Shown in pieces: positions 911-17,189 of a stretch of 64,000 nt of DNA. A program made the translations under genes and the position numbers. Source of the DNA: Halocatena salina (lineage in GTDB: Archaea > Halobacteriota > Halobacteria > Halobacteriales > Haloarculaceae); NCBI RefSeq assembly GCF_023115355.1, contig NZ_CP096021.1, positions 124,001-188,000 of the forward strand, read 5' to 3'. The notes beneath the pieces are model-generated. The model had not been told where the DNA came from. It was given only the letters and a program-made list of their open reading frames with translations, and searched no databases. The first letter of the stretch is position 1. Every line of letters begins with the position of its first letter.

Positions 911-1657
911 CTACCACCACCGTTCAAATGGGACGTACTCCTCGCCAGTGAGGAGATGTTTCTTCAGTTTGTATACTTCGATACGTAGTAGGTACTGGTA
1001 GCTCACCTTCCGATTCAACTGCGGATGTTCGATGGTTTCATCGAGCGTTTTCTCGAACGCCTTTGAGAACGTCTTTCGTCCAGTCTCGTCGAGCAGGCAC
1101 GAGTTGAGGTCGTTCTCGAACTCGTTCAGACCCAACTGGTTCCGGTTCACGACGCGGAAGATGACGCGGTCGGAGAGCAGTGGTTTGAACAGGTCTGCGA
1201 TATCGAGTGCAAGCGAGTATCGTCGTTCACCTGGTTCGTGGAGGAAGCTCACAGCCGGGTCCAGTGCGGTCGCACGGATTGCCGAAACGACGTTGGCGTA
1301 CACGAGCGAGTTGCCAAACGAGATGAGACTGTTCACCTCGTTGCTCGGTGGATTGTACTGGCGGCCAGCGAACACGAAGCCCTCCGGAAGCACGTCGTCG
1401 AAGATTGAGTAGTACGCACGGCGTGCGGTCGCCTCGACACCCATCAACTCCGTTGTGTCCATCCCTTCCTCAAGGGCTGCCGACTGAGCCTCCAGTCGCG
1501 TGATGACGTCTTCGAACTCGTGGTCACGTCGATCGTAGTACTTCACGTTCGATCGCATGTTGTGGATACTCCCCTGGATGATTTTTCGCGCGATTGATTG
1601 CCGTCGCTCGGGGGTGTCGTAGGCACGGACCTGTTCGACGACCGTCCGTCCCGATGT
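911..1657 (-). pseudogene. cas1: 5'-truncated cas1 (C-terminal catalytic domain only)
   Basis: Cas1 integrates spacers as a Cas1-Cas2 complex. The open frame begins directly after a TAG (1658-1660) with TSGRTVVEQVRAY, a segment normally well inside Cas1. The first start codon is ATG 1558, giving 215 aa. The C-terminal domain keeps the expected metal ligands: Glu in GVEATARRAYY, His in FLHEPGERRY and Asp in LALDIADLFKPLL. About the first third of the protein (the beta-sandwich domain used for dimerisation and Cas2 contact) is absent. The cas3 stop lies only a few bases upstream, so a deletion appears to have removed cas4 and the cas1 5' end. Integration activity is doubtful. Confidence 0.85.
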
Positions 1658-1665
1658 CTATCCTT

Positions 1666-4371
1666 CTACTCCGACAGCACGGGCGGCATGACGCCACGCC
1701 CATGAACAAGGGAATAGTCCTCAACCGAGGTGAGCACAGAGAGTGGCTCTTCCGTGTTAATCGCAAGCTCATCAAGGGCTGGCTGTGTCGTTGTGGTCTT
1801 CGGTATCGACACGAGGGTCTGTTTGAGTGCGGAGAGCAGTGCGTCCGCCGCCTCAAACGCGCGAGCATTCTTCGACACGTGGAAGTTCTCAAGATACTCG
1901 GTTTCATGCGCGATAGGAATCAGGATTTCCTCTGTTTCGTAGTCCTGCCTGATAAGCGATGCCTGCCGTAGCTCCTCCCCACAGGCGCGATCGACGTACC
2001 GTGCGAGTTCGTCATCGCGCTCACTAGAGCGATCCTGAGCGTGGACAGCATCGTAATAGCATTTGACAGCACGACTAATCATCGTATGTTCGGGCAGCGA
2101 CGCCCCAGCGGGAGCGTCATCTGGACACACTGCCCGCAGGGCCTTTCTCGTTGGGCCCAGTAAGTCCCGCTCAAATCCGTATACCGCTCGTGATGGTGGA
2201 CAGTCACCATCTTCAGCCCCCAATCGCCAGAGAACCACCGTGCCATCAGCCCCATCGTATGACCGATTACACCGCCCAGCCGCCTGCACAAGCGACGGAA
2301 GAGGCGCAACATCACGATACAGCCGATCCACACTCATGTCAACACCCGCTTCGACAAGTTGCGTCGATGTTATCACGAGCGAGACATCATCGAACGGTGT
2401 TGTCTGCTCCGCTGCGAGCAGGCGTCGCACACAGGCAATAAGAATCGTGCGGTCAATCGGGCGCACTCGTGTTGTTAGTGTTGCCAGCAGGTAGTCAGTG
2501 GCAGTGTCGGCTGCAGCGAGATAGTTGAGGTACGCCGCCGCCGCTTGGTCGATGACATCTGACGATGGCTCAGCAGCCATCTTTTTTTCTTCGATGTCGG
2601 CCACCTCTCTGGCACGTCCAACATTCGTGGTGGTCTCGTAGACCCGAGCAAGCCAGTCCGTCTCCTCATAGAATGCAAGCAGGTGCTCACCGAGATGTGT
2701 TGTTGGCACCTCGCGTGTCTTAAAGCGCGCGTCAATCCGCTCGCTCAGCCCGCAGGCACTCCGAACAGTATTACAGATCGCAAGCACCGTCTCGCGCTCT
2801 TCTGTTGCAGTGATATCTTCCATGAGTCGATCGGTTGCACTCGCTGGTGAGCGAGGAGGAGCTGTCCCAGTTGTCAGGTACTCTATGAGTGAGTCGTCGA
2901 GGAGATAGTCGACACGAGGGTTGTCTTCGAGGAAAGAGAGATACGGTGAACGGTCCGGAATAAGGCGACTGGGGGAGAGATCGTCGCTAATCTGATCGAT
3001 GATCCGTGGTTGTGTCGCGGTCATGAATATGACTGTCGCGTTGTACTGCTCGACGACGATCGAGATGAGGCGGCTGATAAGATGCCACCACTCCATCGAG
3101 AGCGCTTGGGGTTCATCAAGGACGATGATGCTGTCTTGCAAGGCTGGTAATTTGATCGATTGGGTGTTTGCTGGGCCAGCAACAGACTCAAACAACTGAA
3201 CGAATGTAGTCAGGACGAGCGAGGCCAACCATGTTTCGCCGTAGAGTACCTCGTCACCCGTATTCGGATGGTCTTTGATTTCGATAGCATCAGTACGTGT
3301 CTGGAGTTGCTTAAGATGGTGATGGATAGTGTACTGGGGAGATCCACTCTGCACATTGAAGACGGTCTGAATGTCATTGTCAACCTGATCGATCACAGAT
3401 GTGTATGGAAGGGCGTAGATGACGCGCCCATCTTTCTCTTCGGCGAGTGTGAGGGCAGCCTCAAGTCCCGTGAATGTCTTTCCGAAGCCAGTCGGGAGAG
3501 TAAGTGTACAGACGTCTTCACCAGCTCGATACTGCTTCAAGAGGCGCTCCCGAGCCGTCATCCGCGCCTGATCGCGAAGATCGTTAAGCTGGCCCTGAAT
3601 CCCACTGCGGTCCGGAAACGAGTCGATCTGTTCCTGAATGGCACTAGGGTCGAATGCGACAGGTGATCCGCTTGGGGCGGTCATCCCAGACGCATTTAGT
3701 TTGTCCGCACACGTGAGGAGTGACCAGAGATTGAGTACAGTCGTATAGAAGTCATCGCTCGGACTAGTGTTGCTTGTCACCAAGAGATCGGAATACTGTT
3801 CAGGACAGTTGGATGGGATGTCCGACCAGGTGAGGAGACCATCGGTAGCCTCCGTTAGGAGTTCAGTGGCAAGGGATGCGGTATGTGTCTCGATATTCAT
3901 CAGCTGTGTGCGAACGCGATCAAATCGCTGGGAGCGATACCCACTGACTCCATTCGGATCAACCTCTCCTAAGTGATCGTCCTCGTAATTCGGAATCGTC
4001 AGGTGGTGTTTTGCGACCGCATAGAAGGCGGCGGTTCGGAGGTTACCGGAGATCGCCGGGTAGTCAGGATGTGTATCCAGACAGTAGAGCGCATGCACCG
4101 TCACAAATGCACTACTGAGGCTATGATACCGATACCGATCCTGCGGTTCTCTCGAATCATCTTCGTGAATGTATTGTTGGAAGTACTGGGTTAGTTTTCC
4201 AATATCGTGGAGATAAGCGATTGTGCGTGCAGTCACGCGAAAAGCCGCGTCATCGCCAAGTGCGGTGGTAGAGAGGAGCGTATCAACATTCTCTTTAACG
4301 CCAGCAAGATGCTCGGAGAGTGGCTGGTCAGGGCGGGCAATAATCTCTGCGTTCGTGGTATATGTTGTCAT
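1666..4371 (-). CDS. cas3: CRISPR-associated helicase-nuclease Cas3 (type I-B)
   Basis: Cas3 is recruited by Cascade to unwind and degrade target DNA. The 901-aa protein has an N-terminal HD nuclease domain (HD at 55-56, further His at 83 and 122-123) and an SF2 helicase domain: Walker A PTGFGKT (293-299), DEPQ box (419-422), TATQP (451-455), and C-terminal motifs EAGVDMSVD and QAAGRCNR. ATG 4371 is preferred over in-frame starts up to 4479, because the family-like sequence begins at MTTYTTNAEIIARPDQPLSE. The gene is transcribed away from cas6 and ends beside the cas1 remnant. It appears intact. Confidence 0.95.
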   Translation of the reverse strand: MTTYTTNAEIIARPDQPLSEHLAGVKENVDTLLSTTALGDDAAFRVTARTIAYLHDIGKLTQYFQQYIHEDDSREPQDRYRYHSLSSAFVTVHALYCLDTHPDYPAISGNLRTAAFYAVAKHHLTIPNYEDDHLGEVDPNGVSGYRSQRFDRVRTQLMNIETHTASLATELLTEATDGLLTWSDIPSNCPEQYSDLLVTSNTSPSDDFYTTVLNLWSLLTCADKLNASGMTAPSGSPVAFDPSAIQEQIDSFPDRSGIQGQLNDLRDQARMTARERLLKQYRAGEDVCTLTLPTGFGKTFTGLEAALTLAEEKDGRVIYALPYTSVIDQVDNDIQTVFNVQSGSPQYTIHHHLKQLQTRTDAIEIKDHPNTGDEVLYGETWLASLVLTTFVQLFESVAGPANTQSIKLPALQDSIIVLDEPQALSMEWWHLISRLISIVVEQYNATVIFMTATQPRIIDQISDDLSPSRLIPDRSPYLSFLEDNPRVDYLLDDSLIEYLTTGTAPPRSPASATDRLMEDITATEERETVLAICNTVRSACGLSERIDARFKTREVPTTHLGEHLLAFYEETDWLARVYETTTNVGRAREVADIEEKKMAAEPSSDVIDQAAAAYLNYLAAADTATDYLLATLTTRVRPIDRTILIACVRRLLAAEQTTPFDDVSLVITSTQLVEAGVDMSVDRLYRDVAPLPSLVQAAGRCNRSYDGADGTVVLWRLGAEDGDCPPSRAVYGFERDLLGPTRKALRAVCPDDAPAGASLPEHTMISRAVKCYYDAVHAQDRSSERDDELARYVDRACGEELRQASLIRQDYETEEILIPIAHETEYLENFHVSKNARAFEAADALLSALKQTLVSIPKTTTTQPALDELAINTEEPLSVLTSVEDYSLVHGRGVMPPVLSE

Positions 4372-4911
4372 TATGAGGGATCGCCTCGTTGCTGGTATAT
4401 CGTTACGGCTGCTTCGGAAGGCATGAATGTGTCGTCTATCACAGTAGTTCACTGAGCTGTGTGAAGATGACACTACCAACGATACAAGTAATTTCTATTT
4501 GTAGGAAGCCAGAGCCACAAAGCTTATGCTACACTCCCGACCTGTTCTTGATGCGTACATCAAATGGATATGAAATACCTATGAACGCACCCAGCACGAT
4601 GCAACTACGAAACCAACATGGTCTAGGAAGAGCGGTCCCAAAATGGTCACATCTCAGCGTTTCACAGCGAAAGCGGAGCTTTTTGGTAGGTTCCACCGAT
4701 AGTAGGAGACACCCTACGACAGTCCTACATCGGACAGCAGACCTAGATTGGATTGAAGATATTTGTAGGACGCCACTGATAGGGGCTCTTTCAGCTGACC
4801 CACGATTGGGTCATTTCCAAGCACCCGATCGAACAGGCGACTGTCACGCTAAGGAGTGGCAGCGATGCTGAGTGATACGAGTAGCCTGTTACGGAGAGGT
4901 GACCGATAAGA
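4372..4911. promoter_or_regulatory. Divergent cas3 / cas6 intergenic region
   Basis: No convincing ORF occupies these roughly 540 bases, so the divergent promoters of the two cas operons should be here. A 15-mer, TATTTGTAGGAAGCC (4496-4510), recurs with one mismatch at 4760-4774. Such spaced direct repeats could be a regulator site, but no function is shown. A purine-rich GGAGAGG at 4893-4899 may be the cas6 ribosome binding site. Confidence 0.45.
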
Positions 4912-5688
4912 ATGCGCCTGCTCGTTGACTTGGTTGCCAAAGCAGACGCTGCCCCCGATCCGACGTACCACCACAAACTTCGAGGCCGGATCTGGCAGGC
5001 ACTCCGGGGAACCCCCTTCGACGAAGAACACGGCAATGGTGAACCGATAGGATTCGTCTATTCGAATATCTTCCCGTGGGGAGCAATGGCTGCCGATGAT
5101 GAACGGCAGGTGTTGATCGCCTCCCCCCGCGAGGAACTCCTCACAGCCATCGCCGAAGATTTCAAGGACAACCCTGCATTCAATATCGGCGATCGGCCAT
5201 TCGAGATCAAGGATCTGCGGGTGCTTGATATCGACGTCGGCGAACCGACGACCAAGGGGACCCTCGAAACAGCAACTGGAGTTGTCGTTCGTCTCTTTGA
5301 CGCCCACCGCGAGGAGTTTGGGATCGAGGACGACCACGACGCACCCACGTATTGGCGGCCAAAACACGCGATTCAGCCGTTCCGACAGGCCATTGCTGAT
5401 AACCTCCAGTACAAACATGAGCGCTTTCTGCCGGACTATCTCCCGGGACCGACCGATGTTGAGGGGCACCTGTTCACCGACTATGAGCTGCTCAAAACAT
5501 ACTCGCTTCCGGTGACAGTGACAACCGATGTCGAGATTGACCTTGTGCTGAGTAAATGGCGCTTCGAGTATTGCGTACGCGATGACGATCATCGACGCCA
5601 TCTCAATCTCGCACTCGACACAGGTATTGGCGGTCGCAATGGGCTCGGATTCGGGTTCCTCAACCGGAGGCAAGCCGATGCCCACTGA
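4912..5688 (+). CDS. cas6: CRISPR pre-crRNA endoribonuclease Cas6
   Basis: Cas6 cuts repeat RNA to release crRNAs with an 8-nt 5' handle. The 258-aa protein is a RAMP-type protein with an N-terminal RIWQALRGTPFDEEH segment and the diagnostic C-terminal Gly-rich loop GIGGRNGLGFGFLNRR at about 238-253. It is the first gene of the plus-strand operon and overlaps the cas8b start by 11 bases, indicating co-transcription. It must act on two differing repeat types here if both arrays are processed. Confidence 0.93.
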   Translation: MRLLVDLVAKADAAPDPTYHHKLRGRIWQALRGTPFDEEHGNGEPIGFVYSNIFPWGAMAADDERQVLIASPREELLTAIAEDFKDNPAFNIGDRPFEIKDLRVLDIDVGEPTTKGTLETATGVVVRLFDAHREEFGIEDDHDAPTYWRPKHAIQPFRQAIADNLQYKHERFLPDYLPGPTDVEGHLFTDYELLKTYSLPVTVTTDVEIDLVLSKWRFEYCVRDDDHRRHLNLALDTGIGGRNGLGFGFLNRRQADAH

Positions 5689-7948
5689 TCGCACAGCCGC
5701 CACGTCCACAGACAACGAGGATCACGGGCACGCCCAGTCGCCGGAAGCACAGTTTCTCGCCCAACTGCCACAACGGCGGCCAGCAACGATGTACGACGTC
5801 GGTATGCAGTACGCCCTGTTGGACTGGTATGAGTCAGTCATGGCCGCAGACGGAGAGCTCCAGATCGACCCCGAGCACATGATGGCGATGACACCGACGG
5901 CAAAACGGGAACTATTCGGGGAACCAGACAGCCTCATCGTCGTCACGGTTGATCTCACCGATCCCGAGCAGCCCCATCTCGACACAGAGCAGCCCGTCAC
6001 GATCGAGACAATGGCGTCTGACCTCCGGTATCGAGTGGGGCACTCGTATCCGACGAACAAGACGAGTAGCATGACCGATTACTCGATTACCACCCACAAG
6101 AGCGCGGATGCTCACCATCTGGCTGGACGCCGCGAGGATGCGTGGGGAACGAATAACGTCTGTGATCGGTTTACCAACTGGGCAACCAGCGACGCTGCCC
6201 AGCGTGTCCTTGCCGATGAAACGATCGGGGATCGCTGGATTCTGAAAGCACTCATCGAGATTGGCAAGGACAAGACAGAGATGGACCGTCTCAGTACCGC
6301 GTTCATCGACGCTGCAGGTGGAAATGAGGATACAGAGTACGAGGCACTCATCACCATTCGTGTGCGACTTCCTAATGAGGAGACCGAACGGTACCCCGGC
6401 GAGATTCCGGTATTAAACGAGGTGATGTTTGAACAGAAGGCTGACCGCCTGACAAGCATCAGTGTTGATGACGGGACCGGGGACGGTGTCGGGTTTCTTA
6501 CCAACACTGACGGGACTGTCACAGGCGGCTCATCTGGCCTGTTTGGTGCCTACGGGAAAAAACAACGTGAGCACTTCCCGAACCTCTCTCCTTCGGGGAC
6601 TGAAAGTTGGCGCACCCGCCCGCTCTCAATCGACAGCGCACTGGCGATCGCAACGGCAGATAGCGTTCTTGACGATTTCTATCGCCCGATGGGACAGAGT
6701 CGCCGGTTCTACGTGCTCCCCTATCTGGCACATCCGCCCGAAACCCTCTCACCAGCGGATGTCGAGTGGTTCTTCGAGACGGTCTTTACTCCTCTCCGCG
6801 AGGCGGACGGCCAAGCGTTCGAGGAAACCATCGAACAACTGTACCACCAGTCAGCGATGGCCGCACAGCGCGCTGAAAACGAGTCGGACCGACTGTTCGG
6901 GGATGTCGACACCGCACAGGAGACGAGGGCCTGGGATGCTGTTCGCTTCGCAACGGTCTTCGTCGTGACCGGGAATCCCGATCGCATCTTCTTCGAGACA
7001 CTAGATGCAGACCTCTATCGACCCGCCGCGTTGCAGAATACACACAATCAGATCGTTGGGGCGGCGCCGTTCATGTCTCCAGGAATCTTCAATACGATCA
7101 CGTCACATGACGATGCTTTGCTCAATCCGGAAGCGTCGCTCCATCGGTCGATCCTGTTCGGGACATATTTCGTCCAAACGACCGAGCCGACACGCACTAG
7201 TCGAGCGGCCACAGAGACACCAAAGGCGGGTGACATCGATGATACCCGGTTGCAACGACTTCGGCGATTCCTGACGGAAGAGCGTATTGCACCAGACAAA
7301 TTGCTAGAAGGATACGTCCACAAGCTGGTGCAGGATCAGCGGCGGATGGTGGACGAGGAGTATCGTGGAGTTGCATTCCCCCACGTAAGCATCCTGAAAC
7401 AGTACGCACAGTTGCGTGCATTGACGGACATCGACGCCCTCGAATCGACGCCCACAGCGGCAGATACCACACTTCTCACGACGCATATGAGTACAGACTC
7501 TACAGCAGACGCGACACCCGAATCGCGTGACGAACGACTCGAACAGTTTATTGAACAGCACGAGGTCATCAGGGAGAGTCCCGAGCGACAGGCTGTGTTC
7601 TTGCTCGGCGGCCTCGTCGGCCGTCTCAGTAGCTATCAGCGAAACAAGAACATCTCATCAACGCTGGTCCGTCGGTATCCGATCGACTATCTCACCAAAC
7701 AGAGTATCAAGGAGGTGACTAAAGAAGTCCTGCAGATGAACACGACATATATCCAAGCAGACAACCGAAGTATGCGGATGAATGCGCGATATATCGATCC
7801 GCTCCCAGCCCTGATGCTGGATGCAGATCCCGAAACCTGGACCTTCACACAAAACGAGCTGCAGTGGCTCTATGGATTGGGTATTGGCTATGGTGTCGCC
7901 GACACGGACGAGTTCACTGAGGATGAGGCTGCTACACCGACTGAATAA
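5678..7948 (+). CDS. cas8b: Type I-B Cascade large subunit Cas8b
   Basis: This is the large Cascade subunit, responsible in the family for PAM recognition and Cas3 recruitment. The length (756 aa), the position between cas6 and cas7, and a haloarchaeal Csh1-like sequence (MYDVGMQYALLDWYESVM near residue 40) identify it. ATG 5678 is chosen because GGAGG at 5666-5670 is well spaced before it and the upstream in-frame residues are the cas6 C-terminus read in another frame. There are no internal stops. Subtype assignment rests on gene order and general likeness, since Cas8 sequences diverge strongly. Confidence 0.9.
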   Translation: MPTDRTAATSTDNEDHGHAQSPEAQFLAQLPQRRPATMYDVGMQYALLDWYESVMAADGELQIDPEHMMAMTPTAKRELFGEPDSLIVVTVDLTDPEQPHLDTEQPVTIETMASDLRYRVGHSYPTNKTSSMTDYSITTHKSADAHHLAGRREDAWGTNNVCDRFTNWATSDAAQRVLADETIGDRWILKALIEIGKDKTEMDRLSTAFIDAAGGNEDTEYEALITIRVRLPNEETERYPGEIPVLNEVMFEQKADRLTSISVDDGTGDGVGFLTNTDGTVTGGSSGLFGAYGKKQREHFPNLSPSGTESWRTRPLSIDSALAIATADSVLDDFYRPMGQSRRFYVLPYLAHPPETLSPADVEWFFETVFTPLREADGQAFEETIEQLYHQSAMAAQRAENESDRLFGDVDTAQETRAWDAVRFATVFVVTGNPDRIFFETLDADLYRPAALQNTHNQIVGAAPFMSPGIFNTITSHDDALLNPEASLHRSILFGTYFVQTTEPTRTSRAATETPKAGDIDDTRLQRLRRFLTEERIAPDKLLEGYVHKLVQDQRRMVDEEYRGVAFPHVSILKQYAQLRALTDIDALESTPTAADTTLLTTHMSTDSTADATPESRDERLEQFIEQHEVIRESPERQAVFLLGGLVGRLSSYQRNKNISSTLVRRYPIDYLTKQSIKEVTKEVLQMNTTYIQADNRSMRMNARYIDPLPALMLDADPETWTFTQNELQWLYGLGIGYGVADTDEFTEDEAATPTE

Positions 7949-7978
7949 CACGACAATTACACATCACTATACAGACCA

Positions 7979-9019
7979 ATGTCAGAGACAGATACTACTT
8001 CCGTTTCGAACCGATCCGAAATCATCTTTCTGTACGATGCAGAAGATTGCAATCCGAACGGCAATCCACTTTCAGCCAATAACAAGCCCCGCATCGACGA
8101 AACAACGGGCCAAGCGGTCGTCACCGATGTCCGTCTCAAACGCTATTTGCGAGATCAGCTTGATGACGACGATGAGGGTATCTATGTCCGCAATCCTTCG
8201 AAAGCTCCCTATGACAATGTTCCGACGCGGGACGAACTGTTCCAACACGTCACCGGACTCGACGAGGACGAGGTTGACGAGATGGATGGTGAGACGGTGA
8301 CCGATGCGTTTCTCACAAACGCGACTGACGTTCGCTACTTTGGGGCCACATGCTCGTTCTCAGAGAACTTTCAAAAGGCCCTCGGCGAGGGATTTCCTGG
8401 CCAGTTCATCGGTCCGGTACAGTTTGAACATGCCCGCAGCCTCCACACAGTCGCAACAAAAACCGAATCGAAGCAGCTCTCGACTGTCGTTGCCTCCAGC
8501 GAGGGCGATCAGCAGGGAACGTTCGCGTCGGACAACCGGCTCGAATATGCGTTTATTCGCTTTCACGGGATCGTCAACGAGGTTGCCGCGGAGACAACCA
8601 ACCTCAGTTCTACTGATGTCGAACGACTTGATTCACTGATGTGGCGTGCACTCAAAAATCAGACGCTCACTCGATCGAAAGCCGGGCATCACCCCCGGCT
8701 CTATCTTCGGGTCGAATATGGCACCGATGAATATCACAACGGGCGACTCGATGATGGCATCAGATTGGACGAGACGGCTTCAAAGACTGATACGGAATTA
8801 CGCAATATCACAGATGCCGTATTGAACGTCGACGGGTTTCTTACGGAACTAGCCAACGACGCCGCCCACATCGAGACGGTGTATGTGAAGGCTGATCGTC
8901 ATATCAAGGTCGCCGTGGATGGCGAGGTCACAGGGCCGGACACACTCATCATGGAGTTGAAGGCGGCTGTTGGCGAGGATGCCGTCACGGAGATTGACGT
9001 TTACGGAACTAGCGAGTGA
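7979..9019 (+). CDS. cas7: Type I-B Cascade backbone subunit Cas7
   Basis: Cas7 polymerises along the crRNA spacer to form the Cascade backbone. The 346-aa protein begins with the Csh2-type core EIIFLYDAEDCNPNGNPLS and TDVRLKRYLRDQL. It also has the central stretch TFASDNRLEYAFIRFHGIVN and a conserved GHHPRLYLRVEY. It starts 30 bases after cas8b and its stop touches the cas5 region. It appears intact. Confidence 0.95.
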   Translation: MSETDTTSVSNRSEIIFLYDAEDCNPNGNPLSANNKPRIDETTGQAVVTDVRLKRYLRDQLDDDDEGIYVRNPSKAPYDNVPTRDELFQHVTGLDEDEVDEMDGETVTDAFLTNATDVRYFGATCSFSENFQKALGEGFPGQFIGPVQFEHARSLHTVATKTESKQLSTVVASSEGDQQGTFASDNRLEYAFIRFHGIVNEVAAETTNLSSTDVERLDSLMWRALKNQTLTRSKAGHHPRLYLRVEYGTDEYHNGRLDDGIRLDETASKTDTELRNITDAVLNVDGFLTELANDAAHIETVYVKADRHIKVAVDGEVTGPDTLIMELKAAVGEDAVTEIDVYGTSE

Positions 9020-9045
9020 GGACGACCCACCACACACAGGAATCT

Positions 9046-9834
9046 ATGACACACACGTCGCTCAATCCCGTTGGTAGGCAGTGTCTTTCGTTCACCGTGA
9101 GCGGTCAGTGGGCACATTTCCGGCGCATCGACACGACGACTGACAAACAGACCTACAGCGTGATCCCCCGGACGACTGTTGCAGGCCTCATTGGGGCGAT
9201 TCTGGGCAAGCCCCGCGATTCGTACTATCACCTGTTTGCCCCTGACACCTCGGCGATCGCCATCGAACCGCTGGAACCAGTCCGGACGATGCAGATCCCG
9301 ATGTTGACGCTGCCGACAGAAAAAGGGGATATCAAGCAAGCCGAGCACGTAAGCGGCAAAGTCGTCATCGATCCCGCAGTGATTGAGGAGGAACGCAAGC
9401 GGCGGACGTTCGAATACCTGCTGGATCCAGCCTATCGGGTTGACGTCATCCTTGAGGATACGGAGACGTACGAGAACCTCAAGACGGCCCTCGAAACTGG
9501 CACGACCGTGTATACACCCGCGCTGGGAAAGACAGAATGTCTCGCGACCGTCGAATGTGGTAGCCCCGACAGTGAGACGGCTACCGCCGAATTCGACGTT
9601 CACCAGGTGACGGACGTTGAGCGGATCGACTCGATCGTCCCGGAATCAAAGCTGACCCCGCGACCGAACACGTCGTATGCGATGGAACGAACCCCAGCCT
9701 ATATGGAGCAGGACGGGGCCCATCGACGGACGACTGGCTTTCTCTCGTATGGATACTCGCCGGCTGCCGAGCCACTCCCTGTCCAAAACGTGTCCGCTAC
9801 CACGGTCGACGGTCGCACGGTCTGTTTCATGTGA
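9046..9834 (+). CDS. cas5: Type I-B Cascade subunit Cas5
   Basis: Cas5 caps the crRNA 5' handle in Cascade. The 262-aa RAMP protein has the typical N-terminus CLSFTVSGQWAHFRRIDTTT and SVIPRTTVAGLIGAILG, and ends with the family-like GFLSYGYSP segment. ATG 9046 is preferred, with AGG just upstream. A GTG at 9016 overlapping the cas7 stop is an alternative that would add ten residues. It is the last gene of the effector operon; array 2 follows. Confidence 0.93.
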   Translation: MTHTSLNPVGRQCLSFTVSGQWAHFRRIDTTTDKQTYSVIPRTTVAGLIGAILGKPRDSYYHLFAPDTSAIAIEPLEPVRTMQIPMLTLPTEKGDIKQAEHVSGKVVIDPAVIEEERKRRTFEYLLDPAYRVDVILEDTETYENLKTALETGTTVYTPALGKTECLATVECGSPDSETATAEFDVHQVTDVERIDSIVPESKLTPRPNTSYAMERTPAYMEQDGAHRRTTGFLSYGYSPAAEPLPVQNVSATTVDGRTVCFM

Positions 9835-10126
9835 TTGAACGACGTTTCTGGAAGAGAGTGGACTGGTGCAGTCGGCACGTTGCGGTCATACCGCCAGATC
9901 GAAACACACCATACGGGGACTAGATCTCGATTCCTTCTCTGATATGGGATAGATGCTATATTGTGGGCTTCCTCACGAAACTTCGGCATAATCGAGTTTG
10001 CAGATCATTCCCATATTCATAGCTCTATCCATCGACCCCCCAGGGGATACTGCCCTACTGGAGGTCGACGGACAGAGGGCAATAAGATCGATATACACAA
10101 GGCTCAGCTACCACCAATTGAGTATG
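9835..10126 (+). promoter_or_regulatory. Probable leader of CRISPR array 2
   Basis: This is a gene-free stretch of about 290 bases between cas5 and the first repeat of array 2. Repeat orientation and the degenerate repeat at the far end put the leader on this side. AT-rich patches near 9945-9970 and 10005-10025 could hold the promoter. No exact TATA box or integration motif can be assigned by eye. Confidence 0.5.
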
Positions 10127-10284
10127 GTTACAGCAGAACCCTAGTGGGATTGAAGCGTACCGAGTTCCCCAACGGATCAAAAGCGCGCCGTTACAGCAGA
10201 ACCCTAGTGGGATTGAAGCCGGCGATAAAGAACGTCATCCTCCCCGAGATGCGGTGTTACAGCAGAACCTAACAGAGTCGAAGC
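10127..10284 (+). CRISPR. CRISPR array 2: two spacers, degenerate final repeat
   Basis: Two identical 30-nt repeats lie at 10127-10156 and 10190-10219; they begin GTTACAGCAG and end GGATTGAAGC. A third, decayed copy of 29 nt lies at 10256-10284 and changes in its second half. The spacers are 33 nt (10157-10189) and 36 nt (10220-10255). The repeat differs from that of array 1 at seven of 30 positions but keeps the TTGAAG handle core. A decayed last repeat marks the leader-distal end, so transcription is rightward. Confidence 0.92.
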
Positions 10285-10790
10285 GACAATATCAACGAGT
10301 ATCGCAGATGGGCAAGCAGAGCGAATGAATTCGTGGTGCGCTACCTGGACTTCCACCCACAGCACGAGCCCAATTATCTCGTTCATTGATGAATTCCATT
10401 ATAGAATCGTTTTAGTACTTTTTATACAAATTTATTGTCCACATCCTACCCTGTCGACACGGAGCGGTGACGAATAAAGAACCGATTGTTTTTCTTAGGC
10501 GACTTTCTCAACTGATCGCTAACGTTATTAGAGAATATCCCAAGTTTTATGTATAAGAACATATACCTCTACACAGTCTGGACATCGAGTATTCACACCG
10601 ATCGATACCTGCGTGCTCTCTAGGGCTGCTCAAAGTGGTGAATCGCCATCTATTCTAGGTTGAGCTGAGTGCCAAGCTGATTACCAGGGCGTCAACTGGC
10701 AGGAGTTGGAAAATTCAATGGACAGATGGACGAACCTTTCATCGGATACAGTAATCGAGGAACGACTGACTAAGGCGTTCCCAGATGCCT
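10285..10790. other. Gene-poor stretch after array 2, with a possible short ORF remnant
   Basis: No complete gene is seen. From about 10664 to 10792 a plus-strand frame reads ECQADYQGVNWQELENS, then MDRWTNLSSDTVIEERL, and ends at TGA 10790. It follows a stop directly, has no start codon near its beginning and matches no family I recognise. It may be the tail of a lost gene. The rest is AT-rich spacer. Confidence 0.35.
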
Positions 10791-10799
10791 GACCGCCCC

Positions 10800-11040
10800 A
10801 TCACACCAACAATCATCGACATACGAAGGGTGTGGAAAATGGTGCTCTCATCGTCCATAGATGCGTCGCACGGTATCTGTGCTTATGGTCGGTCTTTGTG
10901 GAGATCTCACGCCATGAGCGTCCGTTTTCCCCGAACTGGATGCAGTCGACCGCTGTCGAGAACTCATCGCTCCCTTGATCGGGCACCCAGTAGTTACCGT
11001 CCTCATCGGCCAGTCGAAATGGTGGTTTCCCGTGATCGCA
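10800..11040 (-). pseudogene. Serine recombinase C-terminal remnant
   Basis: Without a start codon, the minus frame reads GKPPFRLADEDGNYWVPDQG, then STAVDCIQFGENGRSWREIS. This parallels the post-catalytic part of the recombinase at 15090 (GRPPFGFDVGSEGYLTPNDD with its C-terminal helix-turn-helix). The N-terminal catalytic domain is missing. The remnant overlaps the 3' end of the AsnB-like gene. It is probably debris from an integration event; the match is by eye and moderate. Confidence 0.45.
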
Positions 11041-12899
11041 GCCAATGTTCTAGTTGAATCAGCGGCCAAACGCTCGGAGCCTCAACATCATACCCGACCA
11101 TATCTTCATCGCTGAGTTGGGAGTAGATCTGTTCGATCGTCTTCGTTACTGCGTTCTGATCAATGGGAAGATGCGCTTTTGCTTGTAGGTCATTCATCAC
11201 AGCTCGGATGGTATCCTCGTCGTAGAGCAATCCCTCATGCCTCATTGGCCCAAACGAGATCGTTGATTCGGATGGTTGCTGTGAGAGGATTGTCGGCGGA
11301 AGAACGGTCTCAAGTACTCGATTGTATAAATGGTACGGCTCCCCCCCCTTGTAGCAGTTCTCCGGCGGGGACAGCGACAATGAATTCGACGATTCGAGCA
11401 TCAGAAAATGGGTATCGAAGTTCCACTCCGTTCTTCAGTGCGACTCGTCGTGCTGCATATTTCGCATATCGATTGATATCTGTGTCGAATAACTCTGCAA
11501 ACCGTGTGTTCTTGAGGGTTTCAAAGCTGAATCGATGAGTAGTCGGCGGACGAAGCTCCCTGAATAGGTTATACTCGTCACCGATTATTTTGGGAATCGG
11601 TGTCTGATCCGGGAAGGCTGGACTGTAGGTCGCATCAAGACAATCTGCGATGAGTGGATAACACCCCAAATTCAATAGATTTGTTGTGACAGCAGCGTCA
11701 TCACTGACTATCTCCTTGATCAACTTGCGGATGGAGCCTCGGCGCAGTAAATCTGCGATTCGAAGATACGTTCCCCGTAAATATTCGGCATCGTGACCGG
11801 TGAGAAGTATTCGACACGAATCAGCAGCAGCTCGTTGAAACATGACATTGTTAACGGCCTGTGTCGTCGTGTGACAGGGGTTATCTGCAAACGTGAACTC
11901 ATGGACCTCTTCATTACTAAATGGACAGATCCTGTTTCCTGTTATTTCCACAGTGTCGATCCCGAAGGTCTGGGCGGCTTTGTGAATCCGTTCTGTTTCC
12001 TCTGTCGCTACAGACGGGTTCTCGAACCCGATTCCTGCCGGATACTCATCGAACACCACGGAGTATCCACGGAGATCGTCACACATCGTTGTGGCAATAC
12101 CAGCAACAGTTGTCGAATCGACGCCTCCACTGAGCATTACACCGGACGGATTCACTCCACGGAGCCGACATTTGATTGCTTCATGAATTAACTCATACAA
12201 CATCTCCTCCAACGAATCAGTAGTGTGGAGTCTGTGCTCGTGGTGCTCTAACTCCCAATATCGATGAGTACTGATGTTGTCTGAGGAGATACTGACGTAC
12301 TCGCCCGGCAACACGGCTTGAATATCCGTGTAGAACGTCTTACCTGGGATCTGACGCTGCAGAAGATAACTCAATGCAACATCGGAATTGACTGCTGCAC
12401 GCACGTCAGGATGGACTGTAAGCGGATGCATATCCGAACAGATAACGGCACCGTGATCTGTTCGGGCATAGAATAGATGGCGAATCCCCGTTTTATCCCG
12501 AGCGAGTACCACTCTATTCTCTTTTTTATCCCAGATACAGATAGCAAACGGCCCAATAATCTTCGAGAAACATTCAACACCGTATTTAATATACAATTGT
12601 AGAAATATCTCAGTGTCAGTTAGCCCCTCTTTCTCTATTGATAGCATTGCCAGTAGGTCGGTTCGATTATCGATCCGCCCATCGAGCGCCACAGCGACAC
12701 CGTCATCAATGAGTGGTTGATCCTCTTCACGCTCTTCTGGTGTCGTATACAGATGCTGATGACCGATGAGAATTGTATCACGTCGCAATACTCCTTCCCC
12801 ATCGGTAGCCCGGTATGAGATCCGTTCCAACATTTCTTCAAACACATGCTGTGCCAGAGAATCTGAGTGATCTTCATAAACAGCTGCCAATCCTGACAT
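11003..12899 (-). pseudogene. AsnB-like ATP-dependent amide ligase, frameshifted at a G8 tract
   Basis: Asparagine-synthetase-fold enzymes adenylate a carboxylate and form an amide. The protein begins MSGLAAVYED, with Ser at position 2 where glutamine-dependent AsnB has its nucleophilic Cys, so ammonia release from Gln is unlikely. Lasso-peptide cyclases and beta-lactam synthetases share this lack. The synthetase domain has the PPi-loop SGGVDS at 257-262. The first frame covers about 520 family-like residues and breaks at eight consecutive C on the plus strand (11341-11348). The second frame resumes with EPYHLYNRVLETVLPPTI and runs to 11003. Full length would be about 630 aa. Removing one G restores the frame. 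A sequencing error, a phase-variable switch or a true pseudogene are all possible. An APH-type kinase is divergent. Confidence 0.75.
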
Positions 12900-13007
12900 C
12901 TTATTCTTCTTAATTAATTCAAACCGTATGAAGTTTATGTGGAGTTGTTCAGCATCTGATGACAGCTACTATGGTACTGGGAAGTTAGTAATTTTATAGA
13001 GTTGACA

Positions 13008-14033
13008 ATGACTATTCCAACAGATTTCAGCTCTTATCTCCACCAACGATTTGATCATGATGATCCATCCTCATCCGGGTTAGGTGGCAAGGGAACTGTA
13101 CATATCATCGATGACGACACCGATAGTGAGGGATTCGTTGTCAAATTCTGTAAACGAAATTCTCCGCATGTGCTAAAATACTTTGACGCCGCTTCATCTA
13201 ACGACCTTGCAGTTGACGCTCTTGCTGTTGAGTCCCACGTGCTGACCGTAGTTGCTGAGCGAACGTCGATTCTAGTTCCAGAAGTTCTCGCAGTTGATTT
13301 ATCCCCGTCTAAGTTACCGCCGTATTTCGTCATGGAGAAGTCCACGGGTGATAGTCTGCATGGGCAGTTTCACGATCTCGCCCTTGACAAACAGAAACGT
13401 CTCATGGCTGAGATCGGGACAACCCTGACTGTCGTCCACGAGTCGTTTCCGTTCAGCACGTGTGGGCCACTCCGAGTCGTTGACGATACCCTCAAGCCAG
13501 TCGATGAATATCAATGGACAGAGTGGTGTGACACTCAATGGACCACCTGTCTCGAACGACTTCGGGAGACACGCTTTGCCGATCTTGTTCCTGAATTGAA
13601 GTCGTGGTATGCGACGCACCGACAGTACCTTCCTGAGACTTCACAGGCAGTGTTGGTTCACGATGATTTCCGCCCGGCGAACCTCCTTGTTGACGACGCA
13701 ATGGAATCTGTGACAGCGATCATCGATTGGGAAGACGTTCTAGCCGCTCCCCCCGAGTACCAGCTTGCGCGCCTCGAATTTCTGTTCATCGATGTGTATG
13801 AATTTCCAACGGAGACACAGTCCCAGTTACGAACCGCTCTCTACGACAGCTACGGACGGTTTCAGCTGACTGATGCGTATCAAAAACGACGTAAACTCTA
13901 TCAACTCCTCTCCATTCTCTGGAAAACGGGGAATTTCAGAGCTACTCATCAGGACACGGATGAAGAACTTCGAACGTCACTTGTTCAGCAGCGCCGTCAC
14001 CGAATCCAGCAGATGATGTCAACTAGTAGTTGA
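13008..14033 (+). CDS. APH-family phosphotransferase (small-molecule kinase)
   Basis: The 341-aa protein has the aminoglycoside-phosphotransferase / choline-kinase-like fold. It carries a probable nucleotide-binding Lys in FVVKFCKR (about 46), hinge-like YFVMEKSTG (106-114), catalytic HDDFRPANLL (218-227) and metal-binding IIDWEDV (238-244). Its substrate cannot be read from sequence. ATG 13008 is preferred to a TTG six bases earlier. It is divergent from the Cys-less AsnB-like ligase. This suggests, but does not prove, that both belong to one biosynthetic or tailoring unit; a stand-alone resistance or salvage kinase is the alternative. Confidence 0.8.
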   Translation: MTIPTDFSSYLHQRFDHDDPSSSGLGGKGTVHIIDDDTDSEGFVVKFCKRNSPHVLKYFDAASSNDLAVDALAVESHVLTVVAERTSILVPEVLAVDLSPSKLPPYFVMEKSTGDSLHGQFHDLALDKQKRLMAEIGTTLTVVHESFPFSTCGPLRVVDDTLKPVDEYQWTEWCDTQWTTCLERLRETRFADLVPELKSWYATHRQYLPETSQAVLVHDDFRPANLLVDDAMESVTAIIDWEDVLAAPPEYQLARLEFLFIDVYEFPTETQSQLRTALYDSYGRFQLTDAYQKRRKLYQLLSILWKTGNFRATHQDTDEELRTSLVQQRRHRIQQMMSTSS

Positions 14034-14426
14034 ATCGCGTTTGTGACCAAGAACTGAGCTAGCCCGCCTGACCACAGCTCGTTTCAACACGTAGAAATCG
14101 ACTGCTTCAGCTGCTTTCGAATTATCCGAATCAGCACTGGTCATCTCTATCGAATCAGGTGGCGTCGACATTTTCTGCCCCATTTTACTTCATTGATTTG
14201 TTTTGGTAATAATAGTATTAAAAATTGTTGATTGTATGGTATTACATGCCGTGATTGTGTAGACGGTGTATGTCTTTATTCTATAAGGATTCGTCTATAA
14301 CTATCTTAGAGAAGGTCCGCTTCGTCTTCCCCTGCAGTTCAGTCCCGGTGAGCTCATTGGACGAAGTGGACATGCGACGTACACTGTGGATCGACAACCG
14401 TATTGAGAACAGTGATGTCAGCGGTA
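14034..14426. other. AT-rich intergenic stretch
   Basis: I see no supported gene in either strand. The segment around 14180-14260 is strongly AT-rich. Short frames here show no family-like sequence. Confidence 0.5.
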
Positions 14427-14645
14427 TCACCCATCTGGCCTCTCCGCGAAGTAAAAGACAAGCGCGACCCCAGTCGCACTCCCTGCAGCGGTCAGTGCTG
14501 CGTTGAGGAAGGTGTTTCCCGGGAACATGAGGCCGGTGGGAACACCGACGCTGAATGCAGCGCCCCACGCCAAAAGCGCGTACTGAAGCGATGAGAGGTT
14601 CCGCACCCAGTTATCAATTATGTTGTAGATTGGTTTGATTTGCAT
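14427..14645 (-). CDS. Small membrane protein, about 72 aa
   Basis: A short protein starting MQIKPIYNIIDNWVRNLSSL has two hydrophobic segments, ALLAWGAAFSVGVPTGLMF and FLNAALTAAGSATGVALVFY, and ends with charged residues. This resembles small two-helix membrane proteins common in haloarchaea; no function is known to me. An in-frame ATG at 14723 would add 26 residues, but those look less protein-like. Confidence 0.6.
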   Translation of the reverse strand: MQIKPIYNIIDNWVRNLSSLQYALLAWGAAFSVGVPTGLMFPGNTFLNAALTAAGSATGVALVFYFAERPDG

Positions 14646-15089
14646 AATACCTAGTAGCTGTATTTGGCTTACTCGAATATATAGTCGATATCTATCAGTT
14701 GGTGAATTGTTTTCTGATATCATCCCCTGATCACAACTACTCGTCGTTCACCAGCTGTCGGCTCAACAGCGTGCAATTTTTACCGTGATATATGCTGATG
14801 GACCTGATGCCCTCCGACTGACGCCCTCTCTGAGCAGTTCCCCTCAAAATGCTCAAACGACAAGCTATTGCCCACCCCGTTGATCAGCCTCGGAGCTAAC
14901 TCTCACGATGAACAACACTGTTGTCCTTCCCATGTTAGACTGCTGTCCAGAGTGAGGTTACGTCATGTCCCTTCCGTCATCGGCTATTATGTGAATTTCT
15001 GACATGGCGAGAAGGAATAGTTTTTCGCCAGACTGGTGAGAAGTGGGATGTCTTTAAGTTAATGACGGGGGTGGTACAAAGTGGAACGA
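14646..15089. other. Intergenic region upstream of the serine recombinase
   Basis: No gene is recognised. The last 80 bases should contain the recombinase promoter. No clear inverted-repeat attachment site is visible by eye. Confidence 0.4.
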
Positions 15090-15752
15090 ATGAGCGAAAC
15101 AACTGCACTCTATTGTCGGGTATCGACGGCTGACCAGGACCTCAGCCGTCAGCGGCAGATCACCAGCGAGTACGCGACCGATCGCCTCGGTGTCGAGCCA
15201 GCCGAGATCGAATTATATCTCGACAAACAGACTGGGACGAATACCGACCGTGACGGATACCGGGATCTTATGAACGACATCGAGAACGGCGAGATCCGGC
15301 AGGTGATCGCGTCGGAGGTCTCTCGGATCTCCCGGTCGGTACGGGATTTCAGCGCTACTGTCGAGCGCATTGTGGACGAGAACAGCGTTGGGCTGCACAT
15401 CCTGGATATGGGGATCGATCTTGATCCGAACGACTCCGATCCCTACACGCGCGCGTTTCTGACTGTCGCTGCGACGTTTGCGGAACTCGAAGCCGAGATC
15501 AAACGCGAGAACGTCCGGGAAGGGATCGCTGCGGCGCAAGAGCAGGGCAAATGGCACGGTCGTCCACCGTTCGGCTTCGACGTTGGGTCCGAAGGGTATC
15601 TCACACCGAACGACGACTACGAGAAAGCGGTCGTGGCGCTCGATGAACTCGATAAAGGCGCGAGCAAGCGCAAGTTAGCATGTTCACTCGGAATTTCCCG
15701 ATCGACTGTACGGAAGATCGCGGACAACCGCGAGCGGTACACAGCCGATTAA
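15090..15752 (+). CDS. Serine recombinase / resolvase
   Basis: This is a 220-aa site-specific recombinase of the resolvase/invertase family. The catalytic Ser is in YCRVSTADQ (Ser12), followed by the usual SEVSRISRSVRDF and FAELEAEIKRENVREGI segments. A short C-terminal HTH, ASKRKLACSLGISRSTVRKI, binds DNA. ATG 15090 is chosen; a GTG nine bases upstream is possible. Its C-terminal architecture matches the remnant near 10800-11040, suggesting repeated recombinase-mediated events here. All key residues are present. Confidence 0.93.
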   Translation: MSETTALYCRVSTADQDLSRQRQITSEYATDRLGVEPAEIELYLDKQTGTNTDRDGYRDLMNDIENGEIRQVIASEVSRISRSVRDFSATVERIVDENSVGLHILDMGIDLDPNDSDPYTRAFLTVAATFAELEAEIKRENVREGIAAAQEQGKWHGRPPFGFDVGSEGYLTPNDDYEKAVVALDELDKGASKRKLACSLGISRSTVRKIADNRERYTAD

Positions 15753-15971
15753 TTCGTGTTTCTCATAGACATTCACGCAACGCTCTTATGAAGGAGATTG
15801 TTGGTGGCGATCACGTAGTCTGTGCCAGGTCAGTAAAACCACGAATTCAGCCAGCGACAACTACGTTCTTCTCTTCCCTCGACCGACTCGTCTCGACAGC
15901 AAAATCACTGGAGGGCTCTCCACCAACAATGGTCTACCCAAGAGCGCTGATGAATTACTCATGAGTAGCGA

Positions 15972-16406
15972 TCACAGTCTCGTTACTGACACATCCATGG
16001 GCGTTGAGTGCTGCATATTATCGGTGACTGGACACCGATCTTCGGTCTGCTCGGCCCATTGTTGGAGGGTCTCGTCATCTGCATCGGTGTCCGCTTCGAT
16101 TGTGACTGTGACATCCTGAAACCCGGCCCGTTCATCAGTCGCTTCCCCCATGAATTTCGCCGGATCGAACTCGCCTGTAATGTCAATTTCAATTCCATCG
16201 AGGTCGAGGCCCATATCATCCGCGACCTGATGGCCGGTCGCGTTGAGACAGCCTGCTTGTCCGCTAATCAGGTATTCGAGGGGATTTGGTCCCTCATTCG
16301 TCCCGCCCGCGTTCTCGGGTTCGTCAACCGTCATCTCGAACTCACGCGCCTCGACGCTTGTTTTCGTCGGATTCTCACTCTGAGCGGTCACACTGAACTG
16401 TGGCAT
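15972..16406 (-). CDS. OsmC/Ohr-family protein
   Basis: This 144-aa OsmC-like protein belongs to a family of thiol-dependent hydroperoxide reductases and relatives. Both redox cysteines are present: Cys53 in QAGCLNATGH and Cys125 in EDRCPVTDN. The conserved GPNPLEYLISGQAGC helix start is clear. ATG 16406 gives the family-like start MPQFSVTAQ; an upstream Met at 16454 adds 16 unlikely residues. It is likely a stand-alone cytoplasmic stress protein. Confidence 0.9.
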   Translation of the reverse strand: MPQFSVTAQSENPTKTSVEAREFEMTVDEPENAGGTNEGPNPLEYLISGQAGCLNATGHQVADDMGLDLDGIEIDITGEFDPAKFMGEATDERAGFQDVTVTIEADTDADDETLQQWAEQTEDRCPVTDNMQHSTPMDVSVTRL

Positions 16407-16548
16407 ACTGTTGTCTTCGGCGTCTTCTCCCAAGCATCTAGGCCTTGTAATCAAAAGGCAGCAGGGACAGTCTTCGTTGGGGATCGATAGAACAACAACA
16501 GAGACAGATCGATAACCGGGAGTAAGCCGTCTTATTTGTGTCCTCTCA

Positions 16549-16683
16549 TCAGGTCTTGATCGCGTCGATCATATCGTCGACGATGTAGATGGAGATCTCC
16601 TGATCCTCAATCCAGCCATATGAGTCTTGGAGATCATCGGCTTCGTCGGTACTCACGCGGGCATAGATCGCTCCAGTAGCCAT
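16549..16683 (-). CDS. Short resolvase-like peptide, 44 aa
   Basis: The peptide starts MATGAIYARVSTDEADDLQD, matching the N-terminal catalytic motif of serine recombinases including the Ser in ARVSTDE. It then stops after 44 residues, far short of the 180-220 aa family. It lies downstream of a toxin-antitoxin pair on the same strand. It may be a decayed recombinase start or a small protein reusing the motif; I cannot decide. Confidence 0.55.
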   Translation of the reverse strand: MATGAIYARVSTDEADDLQDSYGWIEDQEISIYIVDDMIDAIKT

Positions 16684-16844
16684 ACTATTGCATACCCCTG
16701 GCTGTTTTATAAAGAATAGAGCTTTTGCACGGTATGTGTAGAAGAAATTCCTTCCGCACACTCACACTGCCCGCGAACCCCCCGGTTACCCCACGAAATC
16801 GAATCGATCCAAATTTGTGAGGTAACTGTGGTGAGTACTGTTGA

Positions 16845-17189
16845 TCACACTTCAAACAGCATGAGGAGTGACTTTTTGACGAGTCGTTCGCCCGTCTCAG
16901 TGAGTTCACCGTGTGCTTTCTCCGTTAGCAGCGTCCCCGGCGGAATGGTGTAAAGCGCCCACGGCATCAGGAATGTTCGGGTGCTGAACGAGATCTCCGA
17001 GAGATGATCGTCGGTCAGCTCAGGCGCGTAGTGGTCATAGTCGTTCGCACCCGTGCCGAGGCACATCACGGTACACTCGACCGACCCGAACGGACGTGAT
17101 TCGTGGGAGAGAACGATGACAGGGCGGTTGTCGTGTGCTTTAGTTGGGTCAACTGCCCACATGACGGCCCCGACAGGATAGTCACTCAT
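16845..17189 (-). CDS. PemK/MazF-type toxin (endoribonuclease family)
   Basis: The 114-aa protein resembles haloarchaeal PemK/MazF-type toxins, which cleave mRNA in characterised relatives. It starts MSDYPVGAVMWAVDPTKAHD, followed by RPVIVLSHESRPFG, a MazF-like beta-barrel start, and ends in a helical KKSLLMLFEV. The start overlaps the end of the preceding HTH gene by eight bases, as expected for translational coupling of an antitoxin-toxin pair. RNase activity is inferred from family only. Confidence 0.85.
   Translation of the reverse strand: MSDYPVGAVMWAVDPTKAHDNRPVIVLSHESRPFGSVECTVMCLGTGANDYDHYAPELTDDHLSEISFSTRTFLMPWALYTIPPGTLLTEKAHGELTETGERLVKKSLLMLFEV

Follow-up and report, generated by a model that had tools for sequence, protein, structure and literature searches.

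Archaeal genome mining found LanM clusters only in Haloarchaea, lasso-peptide clusters were predicted, and archaeal RiPPs have already been expressed in Haloferax volcanii (PMC12144867). Lasso clusters may also carry a kinase, as in the paeninodin type, where the phosphorylation site is the C-terminal Ser of the peptide (PMC13352647). Apparent true lasso clusters of haloarchaea were present among the loci that we compared (L037, L038, L039, L040, L044 and L060). In these, the cyclase adjoins PqqD, a transglutaminase-like B2 and an HPr-kinase-like protein, together with an ABC transporter and recognisable precursors such as MTYKPPEVNEYGSVESITEGSGTNKSGSGSDEYSSSTSLTGSIFG, which the Halopiger plasmid record does not annotate as such. 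The haloarchaeal lasso precursors carry a P-x-(L/V)-x-x-YGSV leader pattern. Further relatives of the ligase described here are beta-lactam synthetase, carbapenam synthetase and TsnB9, which are AsnB-family enzymes that couple a carboxylate to an amine and act on small molecules. To our knowledge, these have neither a small ORF nor a member of the kinase subfamily described below as a partner.

The unit at 11034-14275 of the window (the window being the whole 64-kb stretch of DNA that was analysed) is, in the reading that we favour on balance, a three-gene RiPP-like cassette in which the ligase is broken and of which the window holds a decaying copy. The features of the locus are:

11034-14275, no strand: discrete homologous unit common to the window and locus L032, with unrelated flanks (88.8% DNA identity)
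11310-12899, minus strand: Cys-less ligase of the AsnB family; its open frame of 529 aa extends beyond the frameshift (Pfam; the L032 ortholog has 627 aa)
11341-11348, minus strand: run of eight G (G8), site of the frame break (L032 reads GGAGGAG here)
11003-11340, minus strand: remainder of the ligase, read in the shifted frame (no homology to L032 beyond 11034)
13002-14033, plus strand: APH-fold kinase of a LanM-associated subfamily (Pfam, tree; 89% identical in L032)
14019-14183, minus strand: small ORF of 54 aa (MGQKMSTPPDSIEMTSADSDNSKAAEAVDFYVLKRAVVRRASSVLGHKRDSTTS), candidate precursor peptide, conserved in L032
14216-14224, minus strand: TATA-like element TTTTTAATA of presumed function, conserved in L032 and 32 nt ahead of the small ORF's upstream ATG

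When haloarchaeal genomes were searched for the same pair, it recurred in a second genome, that of the genus mate Halobacteriales archaeon YIM A00010 (JAKCFJ010000004.1; L032, the same as L003, in genome G043). Here the divergent ligase and kinase are 89-90% identical to those of the window, and the three genes lie together as a discrete 3.2-kb unit. As a unit with 88.8% identity is found in a second genome, the arrangement is not due to chance. The homology extends from the ligase stop to a point just upstream of the promoter-like region of the small ORF. The direct ortholog is not an ordinary Cys2 AsnB lacking a kinase, as the L032 ligase, open throughout its 627 aa, has Ser2 and a linked kinase; more distant relatives in the same ligase clade are without a linked kinase. 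The complete unit of ligase, kinase and small ORF is known from these two genomes only, and no report of this ligase-kinase pair was found in the literature searched, which included few subscription papers. The surroundings of the window unit showed no RiPP recognition element, protease or exporter, and no RNA family was found at 9000-17000. A minus-strand remnant of another gene (10813-11040) is cut exactly at the end of the ligase unit, which suggests an insertion or rearrangement at 11034, and the last residues of the ligase, beyond 11034, derive from the non-homologous flank.

For the ligase, the earlier note had claimed an AsnB-like enzyme with Ser at position 2, unable to use glutamine in the usual way, and this was borne out. 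The product of 11310-12899 (minus strand) begins with MSGLAAV and contains GATase_7/GATase_6 and Asn_synthase domains (Pfam), and it therefore has the Ntn amidotransferase and PP-loop synthetase domains that define the AsnB superfamily fold. The AF2 model of the L032 ligase (pLDDT 77.5, pTM 0.83) matched AsnB as well as TsnB9 and the beta-lactam and carbapenam synthetases in Foldseek (7ylz, 1ct9, 1jgt family), with the same predicted fold as the latter three enzymes at 14-17% identity over the fold match. The ligase does not have the catalytic Cys after Met, nor the Arg, Asn and Glu, of a glutamine-dependent AsnB. In the alignment of the window clade, Cys2 is changed to Ser and the equivalents of R49, N74 and E76 are replaced, with D98 kept (E. 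coli AsnB numbering); the roles assigned to these residues are those in AsnB and beta-lactam synthetase. Single exceptions to these losses are the N in L035b and the E in the L046 type. With four glutamine-site residues lost, the ligase probably no longer uses glutamine.

Relatives of the ligase were found at 25-32% identity, mainly in the same genus, and 13 of them, including the window ligase, form a group in the tree that is separate from haloarchaeal lasso cyclases and AsnB (98/96 support). Cys2 and the R49, N74 and E76 equivalents are lost in both the window clade and the haloarchaeal lasso cyclases, and the PP-loop is kept in both, with an SGGVDS motif in the ligase. The Lys equivalent to AsnB K449 is kept by the lasso cyclases and is absent from the window clade, the L046 type apart. 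Because this catalytic Lys is missing, most ligases of the clade may be pseudoenzymes or may carry out other chemistry, and its apparent loss in an otherwise conserved ligase family poses a mechanistic question.

The earlier note had found no precursor peptide nearby, which has to be corrected, as a conserved 54-codon ORF is present inside the shared unit at 14019-14183 on the minus strand. It has 54 aa in the window and 57 aa in L032, and the 9-nt indel between the two copies preserves the frame. The ORF is downstream of and convergent with the kinase, the 3' end of which it overlaps by 15 bp on the opposite strand, and an alternative start at 14171 would give a 50-aa product. Between the window and L032, its dN/dS was 0.30 in frame, compared to 1.07 and 1.41 in the shifted frames. 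Conserved and coding-like, it is a candidate peptide and could be the substrate of the cassette. When the small ORFs were searched against 146 genomes of the family, no further clear relatives were found, and the other matches (E 0.03-0.09) were treated as chance. The charge pattern of the small ORF alone was rejected as evidence, since such a pattern occurs by chance at about 0.38 per intergenic kb and layout alone therefore proves little.

The APH-type kinase was confirmed at 13002-14033 on the plus strand (PF01636, 70.5 bits). It diverges from the ligase across a gap of about 100 bp, and ATG at 13008 is its likelier start. In the tree it groups (96/96) with the kinases of LanM clusters, apart from the generic haloarchaeal APH-like kinase, and the members of this subfamily have in common an insertion after the Lys strand, ahead of the following helix, that generic members do not have. 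The kinases of L062 and L063 adjoin LanM (PF13575 and PF05147), and that of L065 adjoins a LanM-like gene in two ORFs, of which the LANC part was confirmed. This L065 gene (2141-5269; 645 and 394 aa) looks like a frame-broken RiPP gene from the same genus. Among the sampled genomes of the genus, the three with this kinase subfamily are exactly those that have LanM. The window's own genome has LanM-type synthetases at G000:C3:387590-388639 and G000:C1:1454083-1455105, neither with the kinase subfamily, for which the window kinase was the only match in that genome.

Other accessory proteins also connect the two kinds of loci. L062 (10875-12506) and L063 (712-2340) encode a protein of 543 aa that has a propeller-like N part and no Pfam match; in L046/L091 its C-domain is found by itself next to the ligase. 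Ligase-clade and LanM/kinase loci are further linked by NUDIX and 462-aa proteins (L034, L066 and L092), and an S9 fragment beside the second kinase of L032 is 76% identical to the S9 protein of L046. The kinase subfamily and other accessory proteins are shared with the haloarchaeal class II lanthipeptide clusters of the same genus, whereas the modifying enzyme here is an AsnB-like ligase and the candidate peptides contain no or almost no Cys.

Small ORFs were also found with other ligases of the clade. L034 and L035 share a block of GT, ligase, S9 hydrolase, ligase and small ORF; this last ORF has 42 aa (dS 0.43 and dN 0.06 in frame), and the block stops directly behind it. The ligase and S9 loci L042 and L043 carry ORFs of 41-42 aa that are 51% identical (E about 3e-9), with a score of 78 where 2000 shuffles gave at most 25, and their position with respect to the S9 gene differs. 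In L036 and L046 the small ORFs are singletons without support, and L041 has only an unsupported acidic 39-aa ORF. No homology was detectable among the three conserved small-ORF families; such undetectable homology between precursor families is common for RiPPs. The Cys-less ligase is recurrently paired with an S9 prolyl-oligopeptidase-like hydrolase with a GHSHG nucleophile motif (L034, L035, L042, L043 and L046/L091), and glycosyltransferases adjoin some of the ligase relatives. Possible roles of the S9 hydrolase are those of a leader peptidase and of an isopeptidase-like enzyme, the isopeptidases in this comparison being S9-type enzymes.

In the proposed cassette, a 54-aa ribosomal peptide would be acted upon by the APH-fold kinase and by a glutamine-independent ligase of the AsnB family. 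The ligase would adenylate a carboxylate of the peptide (an Asp/Glu side chain or the C-terminus) and couple it to an amine, either within the same peptide or on a different substrate, resulting in an amide or similar bond, while the kinase would phosphorylate the peptide as a modification or for self-protection of the host. The role of the small ORF as substrate, the ligase chemistry, the kinase target and the lost activity are predictions; layout, conservation, the missing glutaminase residues, the frameshift in this assembly, clade membership and LanM association are observations. Paeninodin-type lasso clusters that encode a peptide kinase have the same combination of peptide ligase and kinase, and Ser is the last residue of the window small ORF, as it is of paeninodin, where it is the phosphorylation site; however, the window kinase is of an unrelated family, there are no B proteins, and phosphorylation in the window is a prediction. 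The suggestion of a small peptide or metabolite tailoring system can therefore be kept in part: peptide tailoring is plausible, the pair recurs and the kinase subfamily is lanthipeptide-linked, but the link made to lasso cyclases was too broad.

The likeness to lasso cyclases and beta-lactam synthetases that was claimed for Ser2 extends to the same glutaminase losses in the lasso cyclases, and NF033535, the lasso cyclase family, is the top family for the ligase. An AsnB fold, a dead glutaminase domain and a linked short peptide ORF are common to both. A true lasso system, with the ligase as lasso cyclase and a leader protease and recognition protein acting from elsewhere in the genome, is nevertheless highly improbable. 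The ligase scored 246.5 and 259.1 bits and the window clade 217-275 bits, far below the curated cut-off of 525 bits and the 585-603 bits of true haloarchaeal lasso cyclases, and the ligase is outside the lasso clade and without the Lys that lasso cyclases keep. B1, B2 and the lasso-type HPr kinase had no tblastn match in the window, L032 or the other loci of the clade; the window's genome has no B2 (Transglut_core3) over the cut-off and just one PqqD match, a remote one that lies on a different contig. The kinase is APH-fold and not HPr-kinase-like, the haloarchaeal lasso leader motif is absent from the window small ORF and, although this ORF has an Asp, the tail would be only four residues. 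The score, the clade, the missing partners and the leader motif thus led to the rejection of lasso membership, and the cassette is better considered a variant that is related to, but distinct from, lasso-peptide machinery. Another possibility, which we consider unlikely, is small-molecule tailoring or resistance, where the ligase makes an amide on a free metabolite in the manner of the hydroxyamidotransferase TsnB9 or of beta-lactam synthetase. In that case the metabolite would be modified or detoxified by the kinase, and the small ORF would be a regulator or bystander. The best structural matches of the ligase, the aminoglycoside and hygromycin kinases among the weak matches of the kinase and the glycosyltransferases beside some relatives would all fit such a role, but three independent locus pairs with conserved small ORFs, the tie of the kinase subfamily to LanM and a unit without other metabolite-building genes argue against it.

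The frame break itself could also have more than one explanation. The ligase is broken exactly at G8, as had been noted: it has one extra base compared to the GGAGGAG of its ortholog, and the eight C at 11341-11348 (G on the coding strand) are the sole run of at least seven G/C across the 64-kb window. At this point the reading frame moves to 11003-11401 (minus strand), which is 79% identical to the C-terminus of the 627-aa L032 ligase. Additional frameshifts, which would have spoken against the earlier description, were looked for in the window ligase gene and no second break was found. The extra base would truncate the window ligase by about 109 residues, with the kinase and small ORF still open. 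An assembly or sequencing error in an intact cassette is unlikely, even though homopolymer indels are a known type of error, the gene has no other defect and its coding frame continues immediately after the break. Of the 11 G8 runs in the 4.0-Mb genome, at least five besides this one are inside intact long ORFs, and the assembly is therefore not generally faulty at such runs. The changes between the window and L032 ligases also differ across the run, with 53 nonsynonymous and 92 synonymous before it (dN/dS 0.15) and 18 and 10 after it (dN/dS 0.50), a rise past the frameshift (Fisher p=0.011) in a test that rests on 28 changes. No shift was found in the same C-terminal region of two control pairs of relatives (0.18 vs 0.16 and 0.12 vs 0.20), and the post-frameshift changes, polarised against the wider family, showed no excess in the window copy (8 vs 9). 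Constraint past the G run thus appears relaxed, which, with these small counts, favours a real and established loss of the ligase. A functional slippage switch controlling ligase expression, by phase variation or by transcriptional or ribosomal frameshifting, is very unlikely. The break falls in the longest G run of the window and the frame downstream is still open and recognisable, but L032 has no run there, so the slippage site is not conserved, and other G8 runs of the genome do not break genes; with the relaxed constraint downstream, phase-variable expression was discarded. On balance, the other earlier suggestion, that the cluster is decaying, is the better supported. The window ligase copy is probably inactive and decaying, which suggests that the window copy no longer yields the final product, and this copy is probably only a relic.

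If the cassette is what we propose, AsnB-type peptide ligation in archaea is not confined to lasso peptides, and there is a second ligase lineage, with its own candidate precursors and with accessory parts common to lanthipeptide clusters, that is testable in Haloferax volcanii. A wider and more tentative idea, to which we give less than even weight, is that of an archaeal RiPP lineage built on a glutaminase-dead, non-lasso AsnB-like ligase, with precursors of 41-57 aa and exchangeable partners (APH-like kinase, S9 hydrolase, glycosyltransferase) common to lanthipeptide clusters, of which the window would hold a recently broken copy.

Both copies of the unit are near defence genes. In L032 (9943-12623), the unit is followed by an HNH-like ORF, identified from sequence only, and a candidate Mrr-like restriction endonuclease, and the window unit adjoins CRISPR-Cas. 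A defence system was rejected, as the PADLOC models of anti-phage defence systems gave no match at E 0.01, and a viral origin is without support, one scan of viral contigs having found no relative. The CRISPR-Cas genes of the window (911-9834) are of Type I, with Cas1, Cas3, Cas6, a Cas8-like TM1802, Cas7 and Cas5. The Cas1 ORF (911-1558, minus strand) is directly after Cas3 with no Cas4 ORF between them. As it lacks the first 111 profile positions and Cas4 is missing, the adaptation part may be truncated. The window also contains a very short CRISPR array with two spacers at 10127-10285, in which two copies of the 30-nt repeat (GTTACAGCAGAACCCTAGTGGGATTGAAGC) are exact and a third is degenerate.
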